Positions 1 through 63,757 of a stretch of 64,000 nucleotides of DNA are shown here, one piece after another. Position numbers and translations under genes: made by a program. The notes beneath the pieces were generated by a model that worked only from the letters and a program-made list of their open reading frames with translations, searched no databases and had not been told where the DNA came from. Source of the stretch: Paraburkholderia sp. PREW-6R (GTDB lineage: Bacteria > Pseudomonadota > Gammaproteobacteria > Burkholderiales > Burkholderiaceae); contig NZ_CP155073.1 in the NCBI RefSeq assembly GCF_039621805.1, forward strand, positions 1 through 64,000, in the 5' to 3' direction. The first letter of the stretch is position 1, and each line of letters opens with the position of its first letter.

Positions 1-95
1 TCCACAGGCTGCCGCCATGCTCGATAATGACTACCCCGTTGGTATACGTAAATTTTCGAGAAAACTTGAGCCCTTGCAAGGGGCCAATCCCGGCG

Positions 96-1374: not shown

Positions 1375-2580
1375 TCACTCCTCGCGACGTTCAGCGACGA
1401 GCGCCAGACTGCGGTACACGAGCCACGGCCCGAGAATCTGCAGAACGAAGATCGAGCACATCACGATGGCCCGCAGTTGCGGGTCGAAATTCGGATAGAG
1501 ATTGTAGGTATCGTCGACCAGCAGATAAGCGAGCGCCGACATCGGCGATAACGACAGGCCCAGCGCCATGCCCTGCTTCCAGTCCAAACCGCTCGGCTTG
1601 GCGAACGCCATCACGCCCACCAGTTTGGCTATGAGGCGCGCAACAATCAGACCCAACGCCGCGACGCCGCCGAGCGCGATGTCCTTCCATTCAAACGACG
1701 TCAGCGTCAGCACGAACAGGATCACCGTGAGCAGCCAGCCAGCCGTGCCGAAATGCTGCGGCCACAACTGCGGGCGAGCCTCGTGATTTTTAACGATGAT
1801 GCCGGCGGCCAGCAGCGCAAGAATCGTCGACAGTTTGAACAGATGCGCGAGCGCGATGGCGAGCAGCACAAGGCCGAACAACGCGACAAACGAGTGTTCG
1901 TCCTGCATGTTCAGACGGCGGTAAAAGAACGTGCAGGTGCGCGCGAGCAGATAGGCGAGCACGAGCGAGCCGGCCAGCAGATACAGCGGTTGCAGAATCG
2001 TTGCAAAAACGTTGCCGTACACCTCCTGATGCAGCCAGCTCGACACGAGCTTTTCGATCACGACCGCGTACATGCTATTTAACGCGGTCAAGGTCAGCAG
2101 CCGCTGCGTTACCTGCCCTTCCGCGCGCAATTCGGTTTTGAGCTGGATCACCATGGCCGGTGACGTGGCCATCGCGATCGCGGCAAGCACGGTTGCCACC
2201 ATCAGCGGTACGTGCAGGAACAGCAGAACTGGCAATACTAAAGCGAATGTTAACGTGGCTTCCGCGATGCTCGACAGAATCAGCCAGGGATTACGGCGAA
2301 TCCAGCGAAGATCGAGACGGCTGCCGAGTTCGAACAGCAGAAGGCCGAGCGAGACGTCGAGCAACGGCCGCGCGGCGCTTGCGGAATTCGCGTCGATCAC
2401 GCCAAGACCCGCCGCTCCGGCAATCAAGCCAATGACCGCGTACCCCGAAATACGCGGCAGCCGCCAGGCGCGATAGCACAGTTCACCGCATAAGCCTGCG
2501 GCGAGCAATGCCAGACCAGCCCAGAAAATGGCATCGGGTGCGAGCGGCCAGGCTGGAAAAAACGAAAACGCCGAATTCAT
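1375..2580 (-). CDS. Cation:proton antiporter (CPA2, Na_H_Exchanger domain)
   Basis: 401-residue inner-membrane protein with about 12 hydrophobic segments and no C-terminal NAD-binding (TrkA-N) domain. LLFELGSRLDL (about residues 75-85) is the typical CPA2 motif. The likely role is exchange of monovalent cations for protons. The start at 2580 (MNSAFSFF) is preferred over an upstream in-frame ATG at 2655 because AAGGAG lies about 9 nt before it and the upstream extension is arginine- and cysteine-rich and not membrane-like. The ion specificity cannot be read from the sequence. Confidence 0.85.
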   Translation of the reverse strand: MNSAFSFFPAWPLAPDAIFWAGLALLAAGLCGELCYRAWRLPRISGYAVIGLIAGAAGLGVIDANSASAARPLLDVSLGLLLFELGSRLDLRWIRRNPWLILSSIAEATLTFALVLPVLLFLHVPLMVATVLAAIAMATSPAMVIQLKTELRAEGQVTQRLLTLTALNSMYAVVIEKLVSSWLHQEVYGNVFATILQPLYLLAGSLVLAYLLARTCTFFYRRLNMQDEHSFVALFGLVLLAIALAHLFKLSTILALLAAGIIVKNHEARPQLWPQHFGTAGWLLTVILFVLTLTSFEWKDIALGGVAALGLIVARLIAKLVGVMAFAKPSGLDWKQGMALGLSLSPMSALAYLLVDDTYNLYPNFDPQLRAIVMCSIFVLQILGPWLVYRSLALVAERREE

Positions 2581-3150
2581 CGTAATGGGTTCTCCTTTGC
2601 AGCAACGGCAAACGACACGAACCGGCCGCAAACACCGGCGGGCGGGTGAGCGCACGAATGCTCACAGCTGCGATCGTTTCGCATGACCCGCGTTGCGAAT
2701 TTCAGTGATCGGATGATCTGAACGCGCCGCAGCAGCGGCAACCCGGCGCAATCGGGAGTGCGGCCACGGTATACCGGTACGGCACGGTGTGAGAACGCCG
2801 TCGGGCTTCAGTCAGATGCTGATTGGGCGGCACCGTTCCGTTTGCTGCGTGTGCCGTAACGGAAAGGCACCACGCGGAAAAGAACGGCGATTGTGCCATA
2901 GCTTTTTCTACGTTAATGGAAAACACATGAACCCGCAGGGAAAACGGTAAAAACTCGCATCAACTTGCAGGCACGAGGAAAAAGCGACCGTCAATTTTTC
3001 ATTGTGATTGGCGTCACTGCCGTCGACTGGCCTGCTTTGCGCGTGCTTGACGAGAACTGGCTTAGAGAAATTAGCCAATCCTGGTGTCGCGCTTCCAGGG
3101 GTGATGAGCGGCCGGCTCGCCACGGCTTGTCTGTATACAGGTTTACCGTA

Positions 3151-3199
3151 TGTATACGTAGTAACAGTTAACAAGGTGCCTCGTTGTCTGTGGATAACC
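3151..3199 (+). repeat. Composite DnaA-box element, copy 1
   Basis: A 25-bp block (3151-3175, containing GTATACGTAGTAA and GTTAACAAG), a 12-nt unconserved spacer, then CTGTGGATAACC (3188-3199) with a perfect DnaA box. The same arrangement, with one mismatch in the 25-bp block and the identical spacer length, occurs inverted at 63610-63658. Confidence 0.85.
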
Positions 3200-3365
3200 G
3201 TAGTTAACCGAAGTGAATCATGGGTTTGCAGACGGCATAACCGGATGCACAGCATGTGCGGCGGCAGCAGGTAAACAGGAACAACTTTGGCCGGTTAACG
3301 CGTGTCGCTGAGTTACCCCGTTTACGTCCACAGCGGGTCCACACGAGTTGCCTCTGTTAACAATA

Positions 3366-3395
3366 GGGTTATCCACATCTTCCGGTGGATAACCC
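3366..3395. promoter_or_regulatory. Inverted repeat built from two facing DnaA boxes
   Basis: GGGTTATCCAC (3366-3376) and GTGGATAACCC (3385-3395) are perfect 11-bp arms around 8 nt. The left arm is a perfect DnaA box (TTATCCACA, 3369-3377); the right arm matches in 8 of 9 positions. T-rich sequence follows on the plus strand, so a terminator function is a weaker alternative. It lies 50 bp beyond the mnmC stop. Confidence 0.7.
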
Positions 3396-3444: not shown

Positions 3445-5418
3445 TCATTGTCCGTTGACGGTCTGCTGCCGCAACGCACGCAGCAGGAACCGGGCGACGT
3501 CGACGTCTTCGGCAAGATCGCGTTCGAGCGGCCACGGCTCGCCTTCTATCTGCGACGCGATAAGTTCCGCGCCGAGCCCCGCCCATATCAGGCCGCGCGA
3601 GCCGTAGGCGAACGCGCCGTACAGACCATCGCTTCGAGGCAGATCGAGAGGCCACGCGCCGCGCAGCAGTTGGGCGTTGCTGACGGCGGCGGCTTCGTCG
3701 GCCAGTTGGCCGATCATCGGCATGCGGTCGCTCGTTACGCAGCGGAACGCGACACGGCCGGCCAGCGACTCGATAGGTATCGTGTCGGTCGCTCGCACCA
3801 GCGCGGGCAGCATCCGTGCGACACGCTCCAAGTTTTCTCGATGACCACTGGGGCGCAGCAGGGTGTCGGGATCGTCGAGTTCGTAGGTCGCACCCGTCAA
3901 CGTCGTGCCATGGGTAAGCGGCACGGCATAGCCTTCACCGATCACCGGTATCGAGAGCGGCGGCACGGCGCCAGGCGGCAACAGCGTCAATTGACCACGA
4001 ATGCTGCGCGTTGGCGCATAGCGCAAGCCGGCGATGCGCGATGCATCGTGAGCGCTAGCGACAATCACCACTGGCGCCCGTGCAACGGCCTGCCCGGCGC
4101 GATCGAAAACGGTCCATTGATCCGTCGTGCGCTCGATTCGCGCCACGTGAATACCAAAGCGCCGTTCGAGCAGATGGCCGGCTGCGGCGCATTGCGCGGC
4201 GCACAGCGAAGCCGGGTCGATCCAGCCGCCGGACGGGAAGAGCCAGCCCGCGCGCGCGAGCGGCATGCCGGCAAGGCGCTCCGCTTGCGCGAGCGAAACA
4301 GGCGTCACGTAGTCCGGCGGGTAACCCAACGCGGCAATGGCCTCGACCATCAGGCGCGCTTCTTCGTCGTCGGCGGCAATCTGCAGTAGGCCATGACCTC
4401 CCCGTAGCGGTGCGTGACCGGATCGCTCGAGGTCAGCCCATCTTTTTAATGCGTAGAGAAAGCCCGCGCGCGTGACCCGGGACGCGACGCTGTCGTCGCG
4501 CGAAATCATCGGATGGAACACGCCGGCGGGATTGCCCGACGCCTCCTGCGCAACCGAGCCGTGTCGCTCCAGCGATGTCACGCGCCAACCGCGCGCGGCC
4601 AGACGCTCGATCACTGCGCAGCCGGCCAACCCGGCGCCGATCACGATTGCGTGCCGTTCTTCCGACGCGAACGGCAGCGGCGGCTCATGGCGACGCACAC
4701 GCCAGCGCGGCTCGAAGTGGCCGACGAGCATTGCGCGCTTCCAGCCAAAGCCGTCGACCTTTTGGTACACAAAGCCGTTTTGAAGCAACGCCCGCTTGAT
4801 GTCGCCGGCGCTGCTGTAGGTGGCAAACGTGGCTCCCTCGCCGGCCATGCGCGCGAGTGACCTGAAAACGGCCGGCGCCCACATTTCAGGGTTTCTCGCT
4901 GGAGAAAAACCATCGAGATAGAAAGCGTCGGCGCGCAGCCTGAGCACCGGCAGACTTGTTTGCACGTCGCCGAAGACAAGAGTGAGGACGACGCGGCCGC
5001 CTTCGAATTCCAGCCGGTGCGTACCTGGAACAAGCATCGGCCAAGCGTCGACCAGCGTCTGGGCCAAAGCTGCGATCCTGGGATCGGAGAGCGTGGCCGC
5101 ATACACACTGCGCAAGTCGCCTGGAGTAAACGGATGCTTCTCCGTCGACACGAAATGCAGCCGTTCGCAACGCGCCGGATCGGCTTGCCATGCCGCCCAC
5201 GTCACGAGGAAATTAATGCCCATGCCGAAGCCGGTTTCGAGCACGGTAAACACCCGTCTTCCATGCCAGCGATCCGGTAGCGCGTTGCCGCGCAGAAATA
5301 CGTAGTGAGCCTGCTCAAGACCACCTACGGCGCTGTGATAGATGTCGTTGTACAGCGGCGAATAAGGCGTGCCGTTGTCGCGGAAAGCAAGGACGGCAGG
5401 GATCAGCGGATCGGTCAT
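3445..5418 (-). CDS. mnmC: Bifunctional tRNA 5-methylaminomethyl-2-thiouridine biosynthesis protein MnmC
   Basis: 657 residues, full length for the fused enzyme. The N-terminal methyltransferase domain (about 1-235) shows the SAM site LETGFGMGINF and YLDGFSPARNPEMW. The C-terminal FAD oxidoreductase domain starts with the dinucleotide fold IVIGAGLAGCAVIERL (about residue 258). It converts cmnm5s2U34 to nm5s2U34 (FAD domain) and then to mnm5s2U34 (methyltransferase domain) in some tRNAs, acting after MnmE/MnmG. mnmE lies in this same window at 50.5 kb. The gene stands alone, divergent from hupB, with no strong ribosome site at the ATG. Confidence 0.95.
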   Translation of the reverse strand: MTDPLIPAVLAFRDNGTPYSPLYNDIYHSAVGGLEQAHYVFLRGNALPDRWHGRRVFTVLETGFGMGINFLVTWAAWQADPARCERLHFVSTEKHPFTPGDLRSVYAATLSDPRIAALAQTLVDAWPMLVPGTHRLEFEGGRVVLTLVFGDVQTSLPVLRLRADAFYLDGFSPARNPEMWAPAVFRSLARMAGEGATFATYSSAGDIKRALLQNGFVYQKVDGFGWKRAMLVGHFEPRWRVRRHEPPLPFASEERHAIVIGAGLAGCAVIERLAARGWRVTSLERHGSVAQEASGNPAGVFHPMISRDDSVASRVTRAGFLYALKRWADLERSGHAPLRGGHGLLQIAADDEEARLMVEAIAALGYPPDYVTPVSLAQAERLAGMPLARAGWLFPSGGWIDPASLCAAQCAAAGHLLERRFGIHVARIERTTDQWTVFDRAGQAVARAPVVIVASAHDASRIAGLRYAPTRSIRGQLTLLPPGAVPPLSIPVIGEGYAVPLTHGTTLTGATYELDDPDTLLRPSGHRENLERVARMLPALVRATDTIPIESLAGRVAFRCVTSDRMPMIGQLADEAAAVSNAQLLRGAWPLDLPRSDGLYGAFAYGSRGLIWAGLGAELIASQIEGEPWPLERDLAEDVDVARFLLRALRQQTVNGQ

Positions 5419-55545: not shown

Positions 55546-55938
55546 GTTGCTCTCACTTGATCGAAAAAAACCGCGCGATCATCGCTGAAAGCGCAATGGC
55601 CGGAGGTTTACTGAAATTGGTTTTCGCGGAACCCGCTATTTAAACTGGTTTTCTATTGGGCGTCAATACTTTAGCGTTGCCGCACCATGCGCGCTGCGTC
55701 CTGCGCGCGCTGATCCGTCCCTGTGGATAACTCCCTTTCCTGCTGAATTTGGCGTTAGAATCTCGCCTTACTTCCCAAAAAACCAGCACGCCGCTCCGGC
55801 TCGCTTGCCCCGCAAACCCTTGTGGCACAAGCGCCCGGAGCCATTGCGCCTGGTCCGCCAAGCTGCTCAGGGCCTTGTTGCGTTCGCGCGACAGGGGCAG
55901 CGGCGAACCGCCGTGCACACCATAACGACAGCAACTCG
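55546..55938. other. rpmH-dnaA intergenic region with one DnaA box
   Basis: 393 bases with no gene. In many bacteria oriC or the dnaA promoter lies here. I see only one perfect DnaA box (TGTGGATAA, 55722-55730), 209 bp before the dnaA start, and modest A/T content from 55560 to 55680. This supports dnaA autoregulation; a full origin with several boxes is not evident. Confidence 0.55.
55722..55730 (-). promoter_or_regulatory. DnaA box upstream of dnaA
   Basis: TGTGGATAA, a perfect 9-mer in minus orientation, probably part of the autoregulated dnaA promoter. Confidence 0.7.
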
Positions 55939-57543
55939 ATGAACGATTTCTGGCAACACTGTTCCGCATTGCTGGAGCGCGAGCTGACGCCCCAGCAGTA
56001 CGTGACGTGGATCAAACCGTTGGCCCCGGTCGCCTTCGACGCCGATGCGAACACGCTTAGCATCGCCGCGCCAAACCGTTTCAAGCTCGACTGGGTCAAG
56101 AGCCAGTTTTCCGGACGGATCGCTGATATGGCCCGCGATTTCTGGCAGGCGCCGGTCGACGTGCAATTCGTGCTGGACCCGAAAGCAGGCCTGCGCGTTC
56201 CGGCTGCAGCGGCGCCGGCTCCCGCGCGTCCAGCGTCTTCCGCGCCGATGAGCCGCCACCCGGGCGGCAGTGCCGCCGTGGATGCGGCAGTCAATGTGGT
56301 GCAGTCGTCGCAAGCCGCACGCGTCGGCAGCGCGAATGCCGCCGCGCAGCAAGCCCAGCAGAATGCGAACGCCCGCGCAGCCGCCGCGGCCGCTGAAGAT
56401 TCCGCCGACCTCGATCTCCCCAGCCTCGACGCGAACGAAGCCGCCGCCGCGCGTCGCACGTGGCGGCCGGGGCAGGGCGCGGGCGCGAACGCAAACAGCG
56501 GCGAAAACGACTCGATGTACGAGCGCTCGAAGCTGAACCCCGTCCTCACGTTCGACAACTTCGTGACCGGTAAAGCCAATCAGCTCGCGCGCGCCGCGGC
56601 CATTCAGGTGGCGGACAACCCCGGCATTTCGTACAACCCGCTATTCCTGTACGGCGGCGTCGGCCTCGGCAAGACTCACCTGATCCACGCGATAGGCAAC
56701 CAGTTGCTGCTCGACAAGGCTGGCGCGCGCATCCGTTACATCCACGCGGAACAATACGTGTCCGACGTGGTGAAGGCTTACCAGCGCAAAGCATTCGACG
56801 ACTTCAAGCGCTACTACCATTCGCTCGACCTGCTGCTGATCGACGATATTCAGTTCTTCTCGGGCAAATCGCGTACGCAGGAGGAATTCTTTTACGCGTT
56901 CGAGGCGCTCGTCGCGAACAAGGCGCAGGTGATCATCACCAGCGACACGTACCCCAAGGAAATTTCCGGTATCGACGACCGCCTGATCTCGCGCTTCGAC
57001 TCCGGCCTGACTGTCGCGATCGAGCCGCCCGAGCTGGAAATGCGAGTCGCGATCCTGATGCGCAAGGCGCAATCCGAATTCGTCAGCCTGAATGAAGATG
57101 TCGCGTTCTTCGTCGCCAAGCACCTGCGCTCGAACGTGCGTGAACTCGAAGGCGCGCTGCGCAAGATCCTCGCTTATTCGAAGTTCCACGGCCGCGAAAT
57201 CACGATCGAAGTGACGAAAGAGGCGCTGAAGGATCTGTTGACGGTGCAGAACCGGCAGATTTCGGTGGAAAACATCCAGAAAACCACGGCTGACTTCTAC
57301 AGCATCAAGGTTGCGGACATGTATTCGAAGAAGCGCCCTGCGAACATCGCACGGCCACGTCAGATCGCCATGTATCTGGCCAAGGAGCTGACGCAGAAGA
57401 GCTTGCCGGAAATCGGCGAGTTGTTCGGCGGGCGCGACCACACCACGGTGCTCCACGCAGTGCGCAAAATTGCCGATGAACGCAGCAAGGACGCGCAACT
57501 GAACCATGAATTGCACGTGCTGGAGCAGACGCTGAAGGGCTGA
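55939..57543 (+). CDS. dnaA: Chromosomal replication initiator DnaA
   Basis: 534 residues from the ATG at 55939 ([28 protein letters not shown]). Domain I is about 1-85. A long Ala/Gln-rich domain II linker follows. The AAA+ domain has Walker [11 protein letters not shown] and Walker [11 protein letters not shown]. The C-terminal DNA-binding domain has [16 protein letters not shown]. DnaA binds DnaA boxes and opens oriC. Upstream in-frame ATGs lack family sequence. It begins the rightward dnaA-dnaN-gyrB series. Confidence 0.98.
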
Positions 57544-58931: not shown

Positions 58932-61451
<2,520 letters not shown>

Positions 61452-61788: not shown

Positions 61789-63140
61789 TCACTCAACCGC
61801 CTCGTCCCCCTCCCACTCAATCGCGTCGAAAATCGCCCGCAATTTGCCGCCCCGCGCCGCATTCAGCCTCTCCGCATGCGCGACCCGTCCGGCGAGGTGT
61901 GCGCGAAAGTCTTCGAGACCCTCACGATTCTGCGAGCGCGGCCCATGCCTGACACAGTTCGTCAGCACTGCTTTTAACCGGTCGAACTCCGGCCGCATCA
62001 GATTCGGATGACGATTGACGACCACCCCTGCCAGATGTTGCCGCGCTCCAGCGCGCATCACACGCGTCTTGCGCAGGTTGACCGTGAACCCTTCCTCGAT
62101 CGCAATGGCCGCGACGCGAATCGCCAAACGCTCGGCCATCCTCGCAAGATCGCCGTCGCCCGAAAACGCAAGGTCATCGGCATAGCGCGTATAGCGAGCC
62201 CCGAGCGAACGCGCGAGGCCCGCTAGCCGAAGATCCAGTCGATACGCGCACAGGTTGGCGAGCGCGGGCGAACTCGGCGCGCCTTGTGGCAAGTGCCGAT
62301 CTCGATAGCGTCGCCGCTCCTGCCAGTCAAAGCGCTCACGTAAATCAGGCGCGAGCAGACGTGCGCTCGGAACGCGATTGGTACACAGACCCGTCAGGCA
62401 GCGTGCAACCTCGCCCGGATAGCCCAAAGCACGCCAGATGGCATCAATACGTCCGGCATGGACGGACGCGAAGAAGTCCGTCAGATCGAAGCGAATCACA
62501 ACGGCCTTGCCGACATGAGGTGCAGCGAAACTCAGCGTGCTGCGGCCACGCCGGAAGCCATGCACGGATTCGTGCGCCGGGACCTTGTCGAGCAGGCCAT
62601 GCAGCACCTTTCGCTGCAAGCCACGCAAAGCGACTTTGGCATTTCGATAAGACGACAGCGTCCGTCGCGCTTCTCGACCACCTTATAGACATAGTGATGC
62701 ACCGGCGCATTCGCGTCCCCGGCCGGCACGCGCCAGCGGTCCGCGAACCAGTCCAGTTCGGCGGCGTCGAGTTCGAGCCAGTTGGCGACGTCCCCAGGCG
62801 TCGGCAGGTTGGGTAGCACTGCGCCGTGCAACCAGGGCGGCGCAGGCTTCTGAGCCGGCGGCAGCTTCAACAGACGAACCGCGCGCGGAGGGTCGTCGCC
62901 GCGCCATGCGGCGACGAAGCCGGCCGATTCAGCCACGATTCTCGACAACTGTTGACGCTCGACGCGATCCCAGCGCGCACCAAAGCGTTTCGCGATCTGT
63001 TTCGCGAGCGGCACCATCCACTCCGCCGACGCACCGACCACGAACGTCATCCGCCGGACCAGCGCGTCCGATTCCGGGCCACCCGCAAGCATGGCATCGG
63101 CGAGTGCGGAGGTGACGTACTGCAGCGTGGATAGGGACAT
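61789..63140 (-). pseudogene. Retron-type reverse transcriptase, interrupted by a frameshift
   Basis: Encodes about 450 residues in two frames. The 5' part (63140-62630, from MSLSTLQYVTSALAD) gives an N-terminal extension of about 165 residues and ends in HHYVYKVVEKRDGRCRLIEMPKS. The 3' part resumes in another frame at LRGLQRKVLHGLLDKVPAHESVHGFRRGRST and continues with DLTDFFASV (catalytic Asp), LPQGAPSSPALANL, YTRYADDLAFSG (YADD) and the thumb region. All RT motifs are present. Restoring one T in the run at 62627-62629 joins the two parts exactly as KSLLRGLQRK. The RT resembles retron RTs, though NAxxH reads FAxPH and VTG reads LAG. It is either recently inactivated or a sequencing error. 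Confidence 0.85.
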
Positions 63141-63175
63141 GAAAGAAGAGGCGGGCAGGCCAGTCAACGCGTCTT

Positions 63176-63371
63176 GTGATGCGTGAGCCGGGTTGCGCAA
63201 CGCGCAAATAACGCTCATGCGACGAACTGCGAAGTGATTCAGATCCACGGGGTAGCCCCGTAGTGCCTTGAACGTAAACCATCCCATCCCTGGCAAGCTT
63301 GACCAGCCGTCCCGCGACGCGAAGATAATGAACGCGCCCGCACGTTGTCAACGCGTTGCCGCACGCATCAC
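63176..63371 (-). ncRNA. Candidate msr-msd-like non-coding region of the retron-type RT
   Basis: Read leftward, GTGATGCGTG starts at 63371 and its exact complement CACGCATCAC ends at 63176, 35 nt before the RT start. This matches the a1/a2 pairing and position of retron msr-msd RNAs. Inside are palindromes (CAACGCGTTG, GTTGCGCAAC) and an ACGGGG/CCCCGT hairpin. The branching G cannot be identified with certainty. A sigma-70-like TTGACA (63346-63351) inside the region suggests an alternative in which it is only a promoter region. Confidence 0.35.
63322..63351 (-). promoter_or_regulatory. Possible promoter of the reverse transcriptase gene
   Basis: On the minus strand, perfect -35 TTGACA (63351-63346), 18-bp spacer, TATCTT (63327-63322). 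This would give a leader of about 170 nt. It conflicts with an RNA starting at 63371, so only one of the two interpretations is likely to hold. Confidence 0.35.
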
Positions 63372-63427: not shown

Positions 63428-63436
63428 TTATCCACA
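63428..63436 (+). promoter_or_regulatory. DnaA box
   Basis: TTATCCACA, a perfect 9-mer on the plus strand. It has the same orientation as the box at 63612-63620. Confidence 0.75.
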
Positions 63437-63609
63437 CGGCCCTCTGGACAACTTGTGTACAACCCGCCGCACTCGTTGTGGGCGGAATCTTGATAACACG
63501 GCGATCGAATGTCCCGGCAGACAAGTTGTCCGTCGCTCGCGCTGATTCCCGCTGTTTACATCGCAGGGTTATCGAATCCACAGTCCGTTGATCCGTCGAC
63601 CAAGTTTCA

Positions 63610-63658
63610 GGTTATCCACAGCATGAGGCGATGCTTGTTAACTATTACTACGTATACA
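63610..63658 (-). repeat. Composite DnaA-box element, copy 2
   Basis: On the plus strand: GGTTATCCACAG (63610-63621, perfect DnaA box), a 12-nt spacer, then a 25-bp block (63634-63658) containing CTTGTTAAC and TATTACTACGTATACA. It is the inverted counterpart of 3151-3199, with 24 of 25 bases identical in the block and the same spacer length. ACT-ATT-ACT triplets at 63641-63649 resemble DnaA-trio motifs. Confidence 0.85.
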
Positions 63659-63757
63659 TATACGAAGACTGTAAAAACCAGAGAAGCAGGTGAGCAGGGT
63701 GCCACGCTCGCCTGCAGATGCTCCTTAAGACAGCGTATCGACAGCCTCGTCAGCTTC

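Follow-up and report, generated by a model that had tools for sequence, protein, structure and literature searches.

Two intergenic copies of a composite element

The window (that is, the whole stretch of 64,000 nucleotides analysed here) contains dnaA, gyrB and two 49-bp composite elements, located at 3151-3199 (+) and 63610-63658 (-), where the initial annotation had placed them. In both, a 25-bp block, with 24/25 identity between the copies, is followed by a 12-nt spacer of equal length and unrelated sequence and, after it, by CTGTGGATAACC. Both copies are intergenic, as had also been claimed: copy 1 lies between ORFs 1375-2655 (-) and 3445-5418 (-), and copy 2 lies outside the reverse transcriptase (RT)-like ORFs, which end at 63296. 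The 49-bp unit is confirmed, but conservation extends further, reaching an IHF-like site and a distal pair of DnaA boxes. The resulting module, of ~230 bp, consists of an AT-rich element with trio-like repeats, a 12-nt spacer, a perfect DnaA box, an IHF-like site at a gap of exactly 18 nt from it and, at 169-195 bp, a distal pair of DnaA boxes. The relevant features of the window are:

1..60, + strand: rest of a decayed fourth module (class 1b), with a box split into GTTG and TCCACA by the contig junction and a degraded unwinding core
3151..3175, + strand: predicted DNA-unwinding element of copy 1, with trio-like repeats TGTATACGTAGTAACAGTTAACAAG (from the sequence)
3176..3187, + strand: unconserved 12-nt spacer of copy 1 (0.57 bits per column in class 1)
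3188..3199, + strand: perfect, R1-like DnaA box of copy 1, TGTGGATAA at 3189-3197 (from the sequence)
3216..3228, + strand: AATCATGGGTTTG, IHF-like site of copy 1 at an 18-nt gap from its box (sequence and class-wide gap scoring)
3369..3377, - strand: R4-like distal DnaA box of copy 1, perfect and inverted, at offset 180 (box scan)
3384..3392, + strand: second distal box of copy 1 with one mismatch, forming a divergent pair with the 3369 box at a distance of 15 bp (box scan)
55822..57543, + strand: dnaA ORF, true start possibly further in (Pfam Bac_DnaA)
58980..61451, + strand: gyrB ORF, in the gene cluster adjoining copy 2 (Pfam DNA_gyraseB)
63428..63436, - strand: distal DnaA box of copy 2, perfect and in direct orientation, at offset 184 (box scan)
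63581..63593, - strand: IHF-like site of copy 2 (CAGTCCGTTGATC on the + strand), 18 nt from the box (sequence and class-2 gap scoring)
63610..63621, - strand: DnaA box of copy 2, a perfect one that reads TTATCCACA on the + strand (63612-63620; sequence and box scan)
63622..63633, - strand: unconserved 12-nt spacer of copy 2 (from the sequence)
63634..63658, - strand: predicted DNA-unwinding element of copy 2 (from the sequence)

There are only five perfect TTATCCACA boxes in the window (at 3189, 3369, 55722, 63428 and 63612), four of them in the two modules. The least stable 40-bp stretches near the copies, at 3135-3185 for copy 1 and 63625-63690 for copy 2, fall within the top 0.12% and the top 0.01% of the window, respectively. 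Between gyrB and copy 2 there is a retron-type reverse transcriptase at 61789-63296 (-), present as two ORFs that overlap and differ in frame; one of them has Pfam RVT_1, and PADLOC reports RT_other and RT_outgroup in both. DNA resembling this region is also present near class 2 sites in several relatives.

Copy number, classes and distribution of the module

When up to three mismatches are allowed, the genome (four contigs, 7.01 Mb) contains three copies, all on contig 1, at 3154 (+), 63612 (-) and 3195858 (-), and a profile built from 61 copies likewise gives three matches. Copy 3, at C1:3195858-3195901 (-), lies 257.7 kb before window base 1, and shares with copy 2 a variant layout with a direct perfect distal box at 184 bp. 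Neither scatter over the chromosome nor absence from close relatives, which the initial annotation had regarded as incompatible with its reading, was found: the three copies lie within ~320 kb around the GC skew minimum, and 94/97 genomes of the genus (this one included) have at least one match at the same threshold. By table count, 82/97 carry the element at least twice and 46/97 at least three times. The reversed pattern gave no match in any of the 97 genomes, which, together with only three matches in 7.0 Mb, excludes a chance origin of the 49-bp pattern.

The presence of one sequence in three copies might suggest a mobile or recombinogenic repeat, or a chance likeness of intergenic AT-rich DNA, but this explanation is hardly credible: chance is already refuted, the gene neighbourhoods recur class by class (see below), the spacer is variable in sequence and fixed in length, and conservation is confined to the module, to which the conserved positions of a three-way alignment are restricted, with no matches for reversed patterns. 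The earlier reading of the fixed spacing as ordered protein sites, and not a mobile repeat, is therefore supported. Among the matches listed, at least 28 pairs of copies, picked by eye, lie 46-129 kb apart with their boxes facing inward. Three misfit pairs on one contig and within 200 kb were seen, one in G086 (same orientation, 189 kb) and the second pairs of G053 (187 kb) and G038 (197 kb), both outward-facing. A family genome of 1.2 Mb has two AT-rich copies only 17 kb apart and in the same orientation (G276:C2:41732 and 59010), whose 44-bp match is identical.

The loci of relatives were mapped with proteins of this genome, giving 160 loci (30 + 10 + at least 120) with 181 sites; gene families were assigned by Pfam, and mnmG, parA, parB and SET from the Pfam domains of this genome's own proteins. 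As the query behind the set of at least 120 loci prescribes both box and core, statistics of box and core conservation are circular on these loci, and box-only searches (see below) took their place. The 80 of them given by name belong to Burkholderia, Paraburkholderia, Caballeronia or Mycetohabitans, except for one MAG contig labelled Acidobacteriaceae. This contig carries an exact copy of the element (L136:487-530), possibly in mis-binned Burkholderia-type DNA.

Four classes of sites are defined by their neighbours among the matches listed. Class 1 (80/181 sites) has a sodium/hydrogen exchanger gene ('kef') on one side and mnmC on the other, and class 1b lies (24/181) on the far side of a GCS2-family gene ('gcsA'). 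The neighbours of class 2 (31/181) are gyrB, eutB or a gene for an aldehyde dehydrogenase, the class being defined loosely by any gyrB, eutB, aldehyde dehydrogenase or RT-like match within 4 kb, and class 3 (21/181) adjoins a DUF2242 gene or a Mut7-C gene. The 25/181 unclassified sites were excluded from the class statistics, and sites whose flank runs off the locus were also dropped. Classes 1 and 1b occur together in 21 loci, 2.9-3.4 kb apart and inverted every time, around the GCS2 and exchanger genes. In this genome the contig start/end junction cuts the DnaA box of the class 1b module (GTTG on one side, TCCACAG on the other), whose distal box lies 168 bp upstream. Its unwinding core, degraded here, is intact in a number of relatives.

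The classes differ in sequence and geometry as well as in location. When the core columns are excluded, the nearest neighbour is of the same class for 156/157 sequences among the matches listed. A gap of 18 nt scores highest for the IHF consensus in all four classes among 108 gaps, with mean scores (of 9) of 7.70 in class 1 (n=79), 7.13 in class 1b (n=23), 5.44 in class 2 (n=32) and 6.50 in class 3 (n=22) among the matches listed, compared with 2.6-2.8 (2.59 in class 1) when averaged over the 108 gaps. The site is weakest in class 2, that of copy 2, where 15/32 sequences score at least 7 of 9 and the peak is slight (5.44 at gap 18 vs 5.25 at gap 19). Among the matches listed, the distal box is inverted at -180/-181 in class 1 (75/76 with at most one mismatch) and at -168 to -170 in class 1b (21/22), and direct at -184 in class 2 (29/32) and class 3 (22/22), while other offsets average 0.05-0.09 sequences with at most two mismatches. 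The distal end is in all classes a divergent box pair 15 bp apart, at -195/-180 in class 1 and -184/-169 in the other classes, with a weaker member that mostly has one or two mismatches; the stronger member is the inverted one in classes 1 and 1b and the direct one in classes 2 and 3. The spacer of class 1 has 0.57 bits per column (77 distinct sequences among the matches listed).

In the family, the profile matches (E ≤ 0.01) 231/249 genomes and 19/24 sampled genera; the names given to relatives (Pandoraea-, Cupriavidus-, Ralstonia- and Burkholderia-like) are guesses. Genus g2, with genomes of 1.7-2.4 Mb, has one match in 26/31 genomes and none in 5/31 at this threshold, with weaker partial matches up to E 0.5; the match lies between dnaA and dnaN in 3/3 examples. 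Two matches are found in 28/31 genomes of g5, 26/31 of g4 and 11/11 of g182, and three in 14/14 of g181 and 29/31 of g6, where the five genomes that were re-searched each have a partial, class-1b-like match among their three. In g176, the match is flanked by the exchanger gene and by mnmG, and parAB follows further on (2/2). In two g182 genomes with two contigs, the matches are 3 kb apart, in G566 at the GCS2-gene block. A large second contig consequently gives no guarantee of a satellite (a copy of the type of 2 and 3), and the idea that satellites track secondary chromosomes was not adopted.

Some other extra copies, which fit none of the classes, suggest common surroundings. Relatives of genes that are sited 9-10 kb from copy 3 here are found at most 4 kb from the third copy of G527. 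The second copy of G607 and that of G692 are 7-9 kb, and that of G542 ~25 kb, from the relative of a gene located at -278 kb in this genome, and those of G607 and G542 are also 14-33 kb from relatives of genes 5-10 kb to the right of copy 1. A single satellite locus common to all genera was not adopted as a reading: around the extra copies in L345 (g6) and L350 (g171), no gene of this genome's own regions was found within the 14-16 kb examined. In L349 (G527:C1:2637000-2653000), L270, L277 and L266, from three other genera, extra copies lie 4-25 kb from relatives of copy 3-region genes, which are 9-20 kb from copy 3 in this genome. Judging from these four neighbourhoods, the class 3 place may be old.

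This distribution bears on the possibility that the satellites are functionless relics of an ancestral two-part origin, later split, that lay around dnaA-gyrB and a SET-gcsA-kef-mnmG block. For instance, a g176 genome (L275) has dnaA, dnaN, gyrB, SET, GCS2, the exchanger gene, the element, mnmG and parAB within 15 kb, and in g5 one match is situated between dnaA and dnaN and touches the latter (3/3; the box has 2-3 mismatches in both copies read), and the other beside the GCS2 gene (1/1). However, relics would be expected to decay, as the class 1b copy of this genome really has, and yet boxes, spacing and core persist in the satellites with the class-specific signatures given above (156/157; distal box 29/32 and 22/22), so that we consider this explanation quite improbable.

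Position on the chromosome and comparison with known systems

Over the contiguous region from -297 to +164 kb, the cumulative GC skew is lowest at window position 307, between the class 1b site (base 1) and copy 1, which is 2.8 kb away. In 13 samples of 20 kb across contig 1, the sign of the skew changes near both ends and in the middle, and one of the seven right-arm samples is near zero. No skew signal of a second origin was found at copy 2 or 3 of this genome. The initial annotation had seen in copies 1 and 2 a matched pair flanking dnaA. This proposal does not hold: they are of two subtypes, only copy 1 is located at the skew minimum, and the window does not contain the third copy. A symmetric placement around dnaA was equally discarded, given that copy 1 lies 52 kb to its left and copy 2 6 kb to its right and that a third copy exists.

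In the Cupriavidus-like G607, the skew switches near dnaA and the two copies are 298 and 440 kb off. Just before dnaA, at the skew switch, this genome has a cluster of three DnaA boxes that the profile does not recognise (G607:C1:3614691-3614886). In the Ralstonia-like G542, the switch is near 3.30-3.36 Mb and the copies are at 3.116, 3.264 and 3.297 Mb, one of the three within some tens of kb of the switch and none at it. The skew thus supports copy 1 as the origin in this genome and does not allow generalisation to relatives, G607 being against it and G542 unclear.

The module resembles the oriC of E. coli K-12 (NC_000913 3925744-3925975), which has an unwinding element and the R1 box in the same arrangement. 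Copies 1 and 2 both have perfect boxes beside unusually unstable DNA, whose melting is predicted. In oriC, GATCAACAACCTG lies 18 nt from R1, the same box-IHF gap as in the module, and is an IHF site according to the available part of PMC4285127; the corresponding site of the module, a predicted one, is present at the R1 distance in all classes and weakest in class 2. By the same measure, oriC has an inverted perfect distal box at -180, an offset identical to that of copy 1, whereas copies 2 and 3 have a strong distal box that is direct, at 184, and not inverted. A position at the skew minimum is found for copy 1, but not for copies 2 and 3 or for either G607 copy. Additionally, the module profile matches oriC in a 701-bp piece of E. 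coli K-12 (E = 0.0023, among 19 sources). Two further differences are that E. coli has one module and this chromosome three, and that the unwinding core of the module, GTTAAC plus trio-like repeats, is unlike that of oriC.

The repeats recall the basal unwinding system (BUS), which the available part of PMC8287927 describes as DnaA boxes, a spacer and DnaA-trios: the module has a box, a spacer and same-side repeats that read 3'-GAC/GAT-AAT-GAT-5'. By the BUS rule, three or more NAN trios must lie no further than 16 nt from the box, but in copy 1 the three trios begin 21 nt from it, past the conserved GTTAAC block, so that copies 1 and 3 of this genome fail the rule with a spacer of 21. Among the matches listed, trios at this spacing are found in 71/80 class 1, 21/22 class 3 and 22/32 class 2 sites, and a formal BUS match at spacer 10 is found in copy 2 of this genome, in 10/32 class 2 and in 22/24 class 1b sites. 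The module may therefore be BUS-like in action, though outside the published rule. Nearer to the published layout are Ralstonia-like relatives, which have a tandem box-like 9-mer and 3'-GATGATGAT-5'. A second DnaA-box-like 9-mer (one or two mismatches) is present in the spacer of 3/4 Ralstonia-like copies read, and in one of them (L267) the order is TTATCCACA-GAAAC-TATCCACC-GTTAT-CTACTACTACTAT, i.e., a tandem box-like 9-mer followed by clean DnaA-trios. No hidden second box was found in the 12-nt spacer of Burkholderia-type copies, where the best 9-mer mostly has 4-7 mismatches. Judging by the relatives' sequences, the Burkholderia spacer may be the site of a lost second DnaA box, which could explain why it is fixed in length and unconserved in sequence.

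More than one origin-like cluster per chromosome has been described before. In Ralstonia pickettii 12D, putative double origins were placed at dnaA and hemE sites (PMC4403523), in a paper without the shared module, and, as cited in that paper, P. aeruginosa has two autonomously replicating origins, one of them essential. The hemE-linked origin was rejected as an instance of our element, since hemE is away from it in the three genomes tested (C1:3409544 in this one), so that the hemE site differs from it. For chromosome 1 of B. cenocepacia J2315, the available part of PMC4948915 reports DnaA-box clusters at two places, leaving the exact origin open, mentions an IHF site and an AT-rich block, and takes the marker frequencies to indicate a single region from which replication proceeds in both directions; the description given there does not include the module, its unwinding core or the third copy. 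According to the available part of PMC2864759, C. metallidurans has DnaA-box clusters that are dispersed, and its skew switches 90 kb away from dnaA. Bipartite origins consist of two subregions with DnaA boxes and a spacer gene in between; classes 1 and 1b may form such a pair in the 21 loci where both occur, and the class 1b core has decayed in this genome. Finally, Hi-C of B. cepacia and C. necator, in the part of PMC13342612 available, shows contacts of the chromosome 2 origin with a broad part of chromosome 1, and it is pure speculation that these contacts are tied to our modules. Thus, several origin-like clusters per chromosome had already been proposed in Ralstonia and B. cenocepacia; a literature search that mostly covered papers outside subscription returned no account of the shared module or of conserved satellites in Burkholderia.

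Origin or control site: the predicted function of the copies

Sequence, spacing, copy number, gene neighbourhoods, conservation and skew position were directly observed; the binding of DnaA and IHF, the melting of the DNA, the loading of the helicase and any timing of firing at copies 2 and 3 are our inferences. DnaA-ATP would occupy the box adjoining the unwinding element, and IHF, 18 nt further, would bend the DNA and thereby bring the DnaA bound to the distal box pair together with the proximal DnaA. The DnaA filament would then extend across the spacer, whose length is fixed, reach the trio-like repeats (5'-TAG-TAA-CAG/TAG-3' strand) and melt the AT-rich stretch. On its sequence, the module is very probably oriC-type DNA with predicted DnaA and IHF sites, and, considering skew and geometry, we are fairly confident that copy 1, together with the neighbouring class 1b site, is oriC. 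The initial annotation's link to replication initiation is supported, and a role of copy 2 in initiation or its control is a predicted one.

Regarding the satellites, searches with boxes only, i.e., with the core absent from the query, are informative. Two perfect direct boxes with a gap of 160-190 (31 gaps) gave 74 matches in 44/94 genomes, with a gap of 175 in 65/74 and 176 in 4/74 by count from the listing, and an inverted perfect pair with a gap of 157-187 was found in 78/94 genomes; the reversed controls of both searches gave no matches. In this genome, the direct-pair search returns exactly copies 2 and 3 and the inverted-pair search exactly copy 1. The core CTTGTTAAC was at the expected place in 30 direct-pair loci (of the 74 matches) as 28 exact copies and one with one mismatch, with one locus lacking it, and in 30 inverted-pair loci, on the better of two sides, as 25 exact copies and five with one mismatch. 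Overall, 59/60 loci have it with at most one mismatch, compared with a frequency per position of 0.0002. As box-only queries recover it, satellites retain a core that was not asked for; as it was found beside both boxes in none of the 30 inverted-pair loci, each module has one unwinding side.

Copies 2 and 3 could also be DnaA-control sites of the datA/DARS type, which would titrate DnaA, hydrolyse its ATP or recharge it, their oriC-like layout being merely a common DnaA-IHF assembly away from oriC. In the available part of PMC5742627, datA and DARS2 of E. coli consist of DnaA boxes plus an IHF site, the same composition, and datA, DARS1 and DARS2 are, like the satellites, DnaA boxes outside oriC. 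Additionally, the satellites share the direct-box variant, class 1 being without a direct strong distal site, and the skew gives no initiation signal at them. By contrast, no unwinding element is among the datA/DARS parts named in that text, and the satellites have kept their core in 29/30 direct-pair loci although it was not queried. This retention of the AT-rich core favours auxiliary origins over a datA/DARS-like site, so that control sites are possible but somewhat unlikely, and we tentatively read copies 2 and 3 as perhaps auxiliary origins. Altogether, we lean towards an oriC-like module present three times, with the copy at 3151 as the likely working origin and the copy at 63610 as a predicted auxiliary, rarely used one.

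It is rather doubtful, although worth considering, that Burkholderia-type main chromosomes maintain, besides a main origin, one or two others at conserved places that are driven by DnaA and capable of melting. If true, these would be natural multi-origin chromosomes, whose extra origins would be conditional or would tie initiation to the secondary chromosomes. As the chromosome 1 origin of Burkholderia was left open by its mappers in the available part of PMC4948915, the module offers a base-precise candidate and a search profile, and the conserved satellites make the natural multi-origin competence of one bacterial chromosome a testable question.
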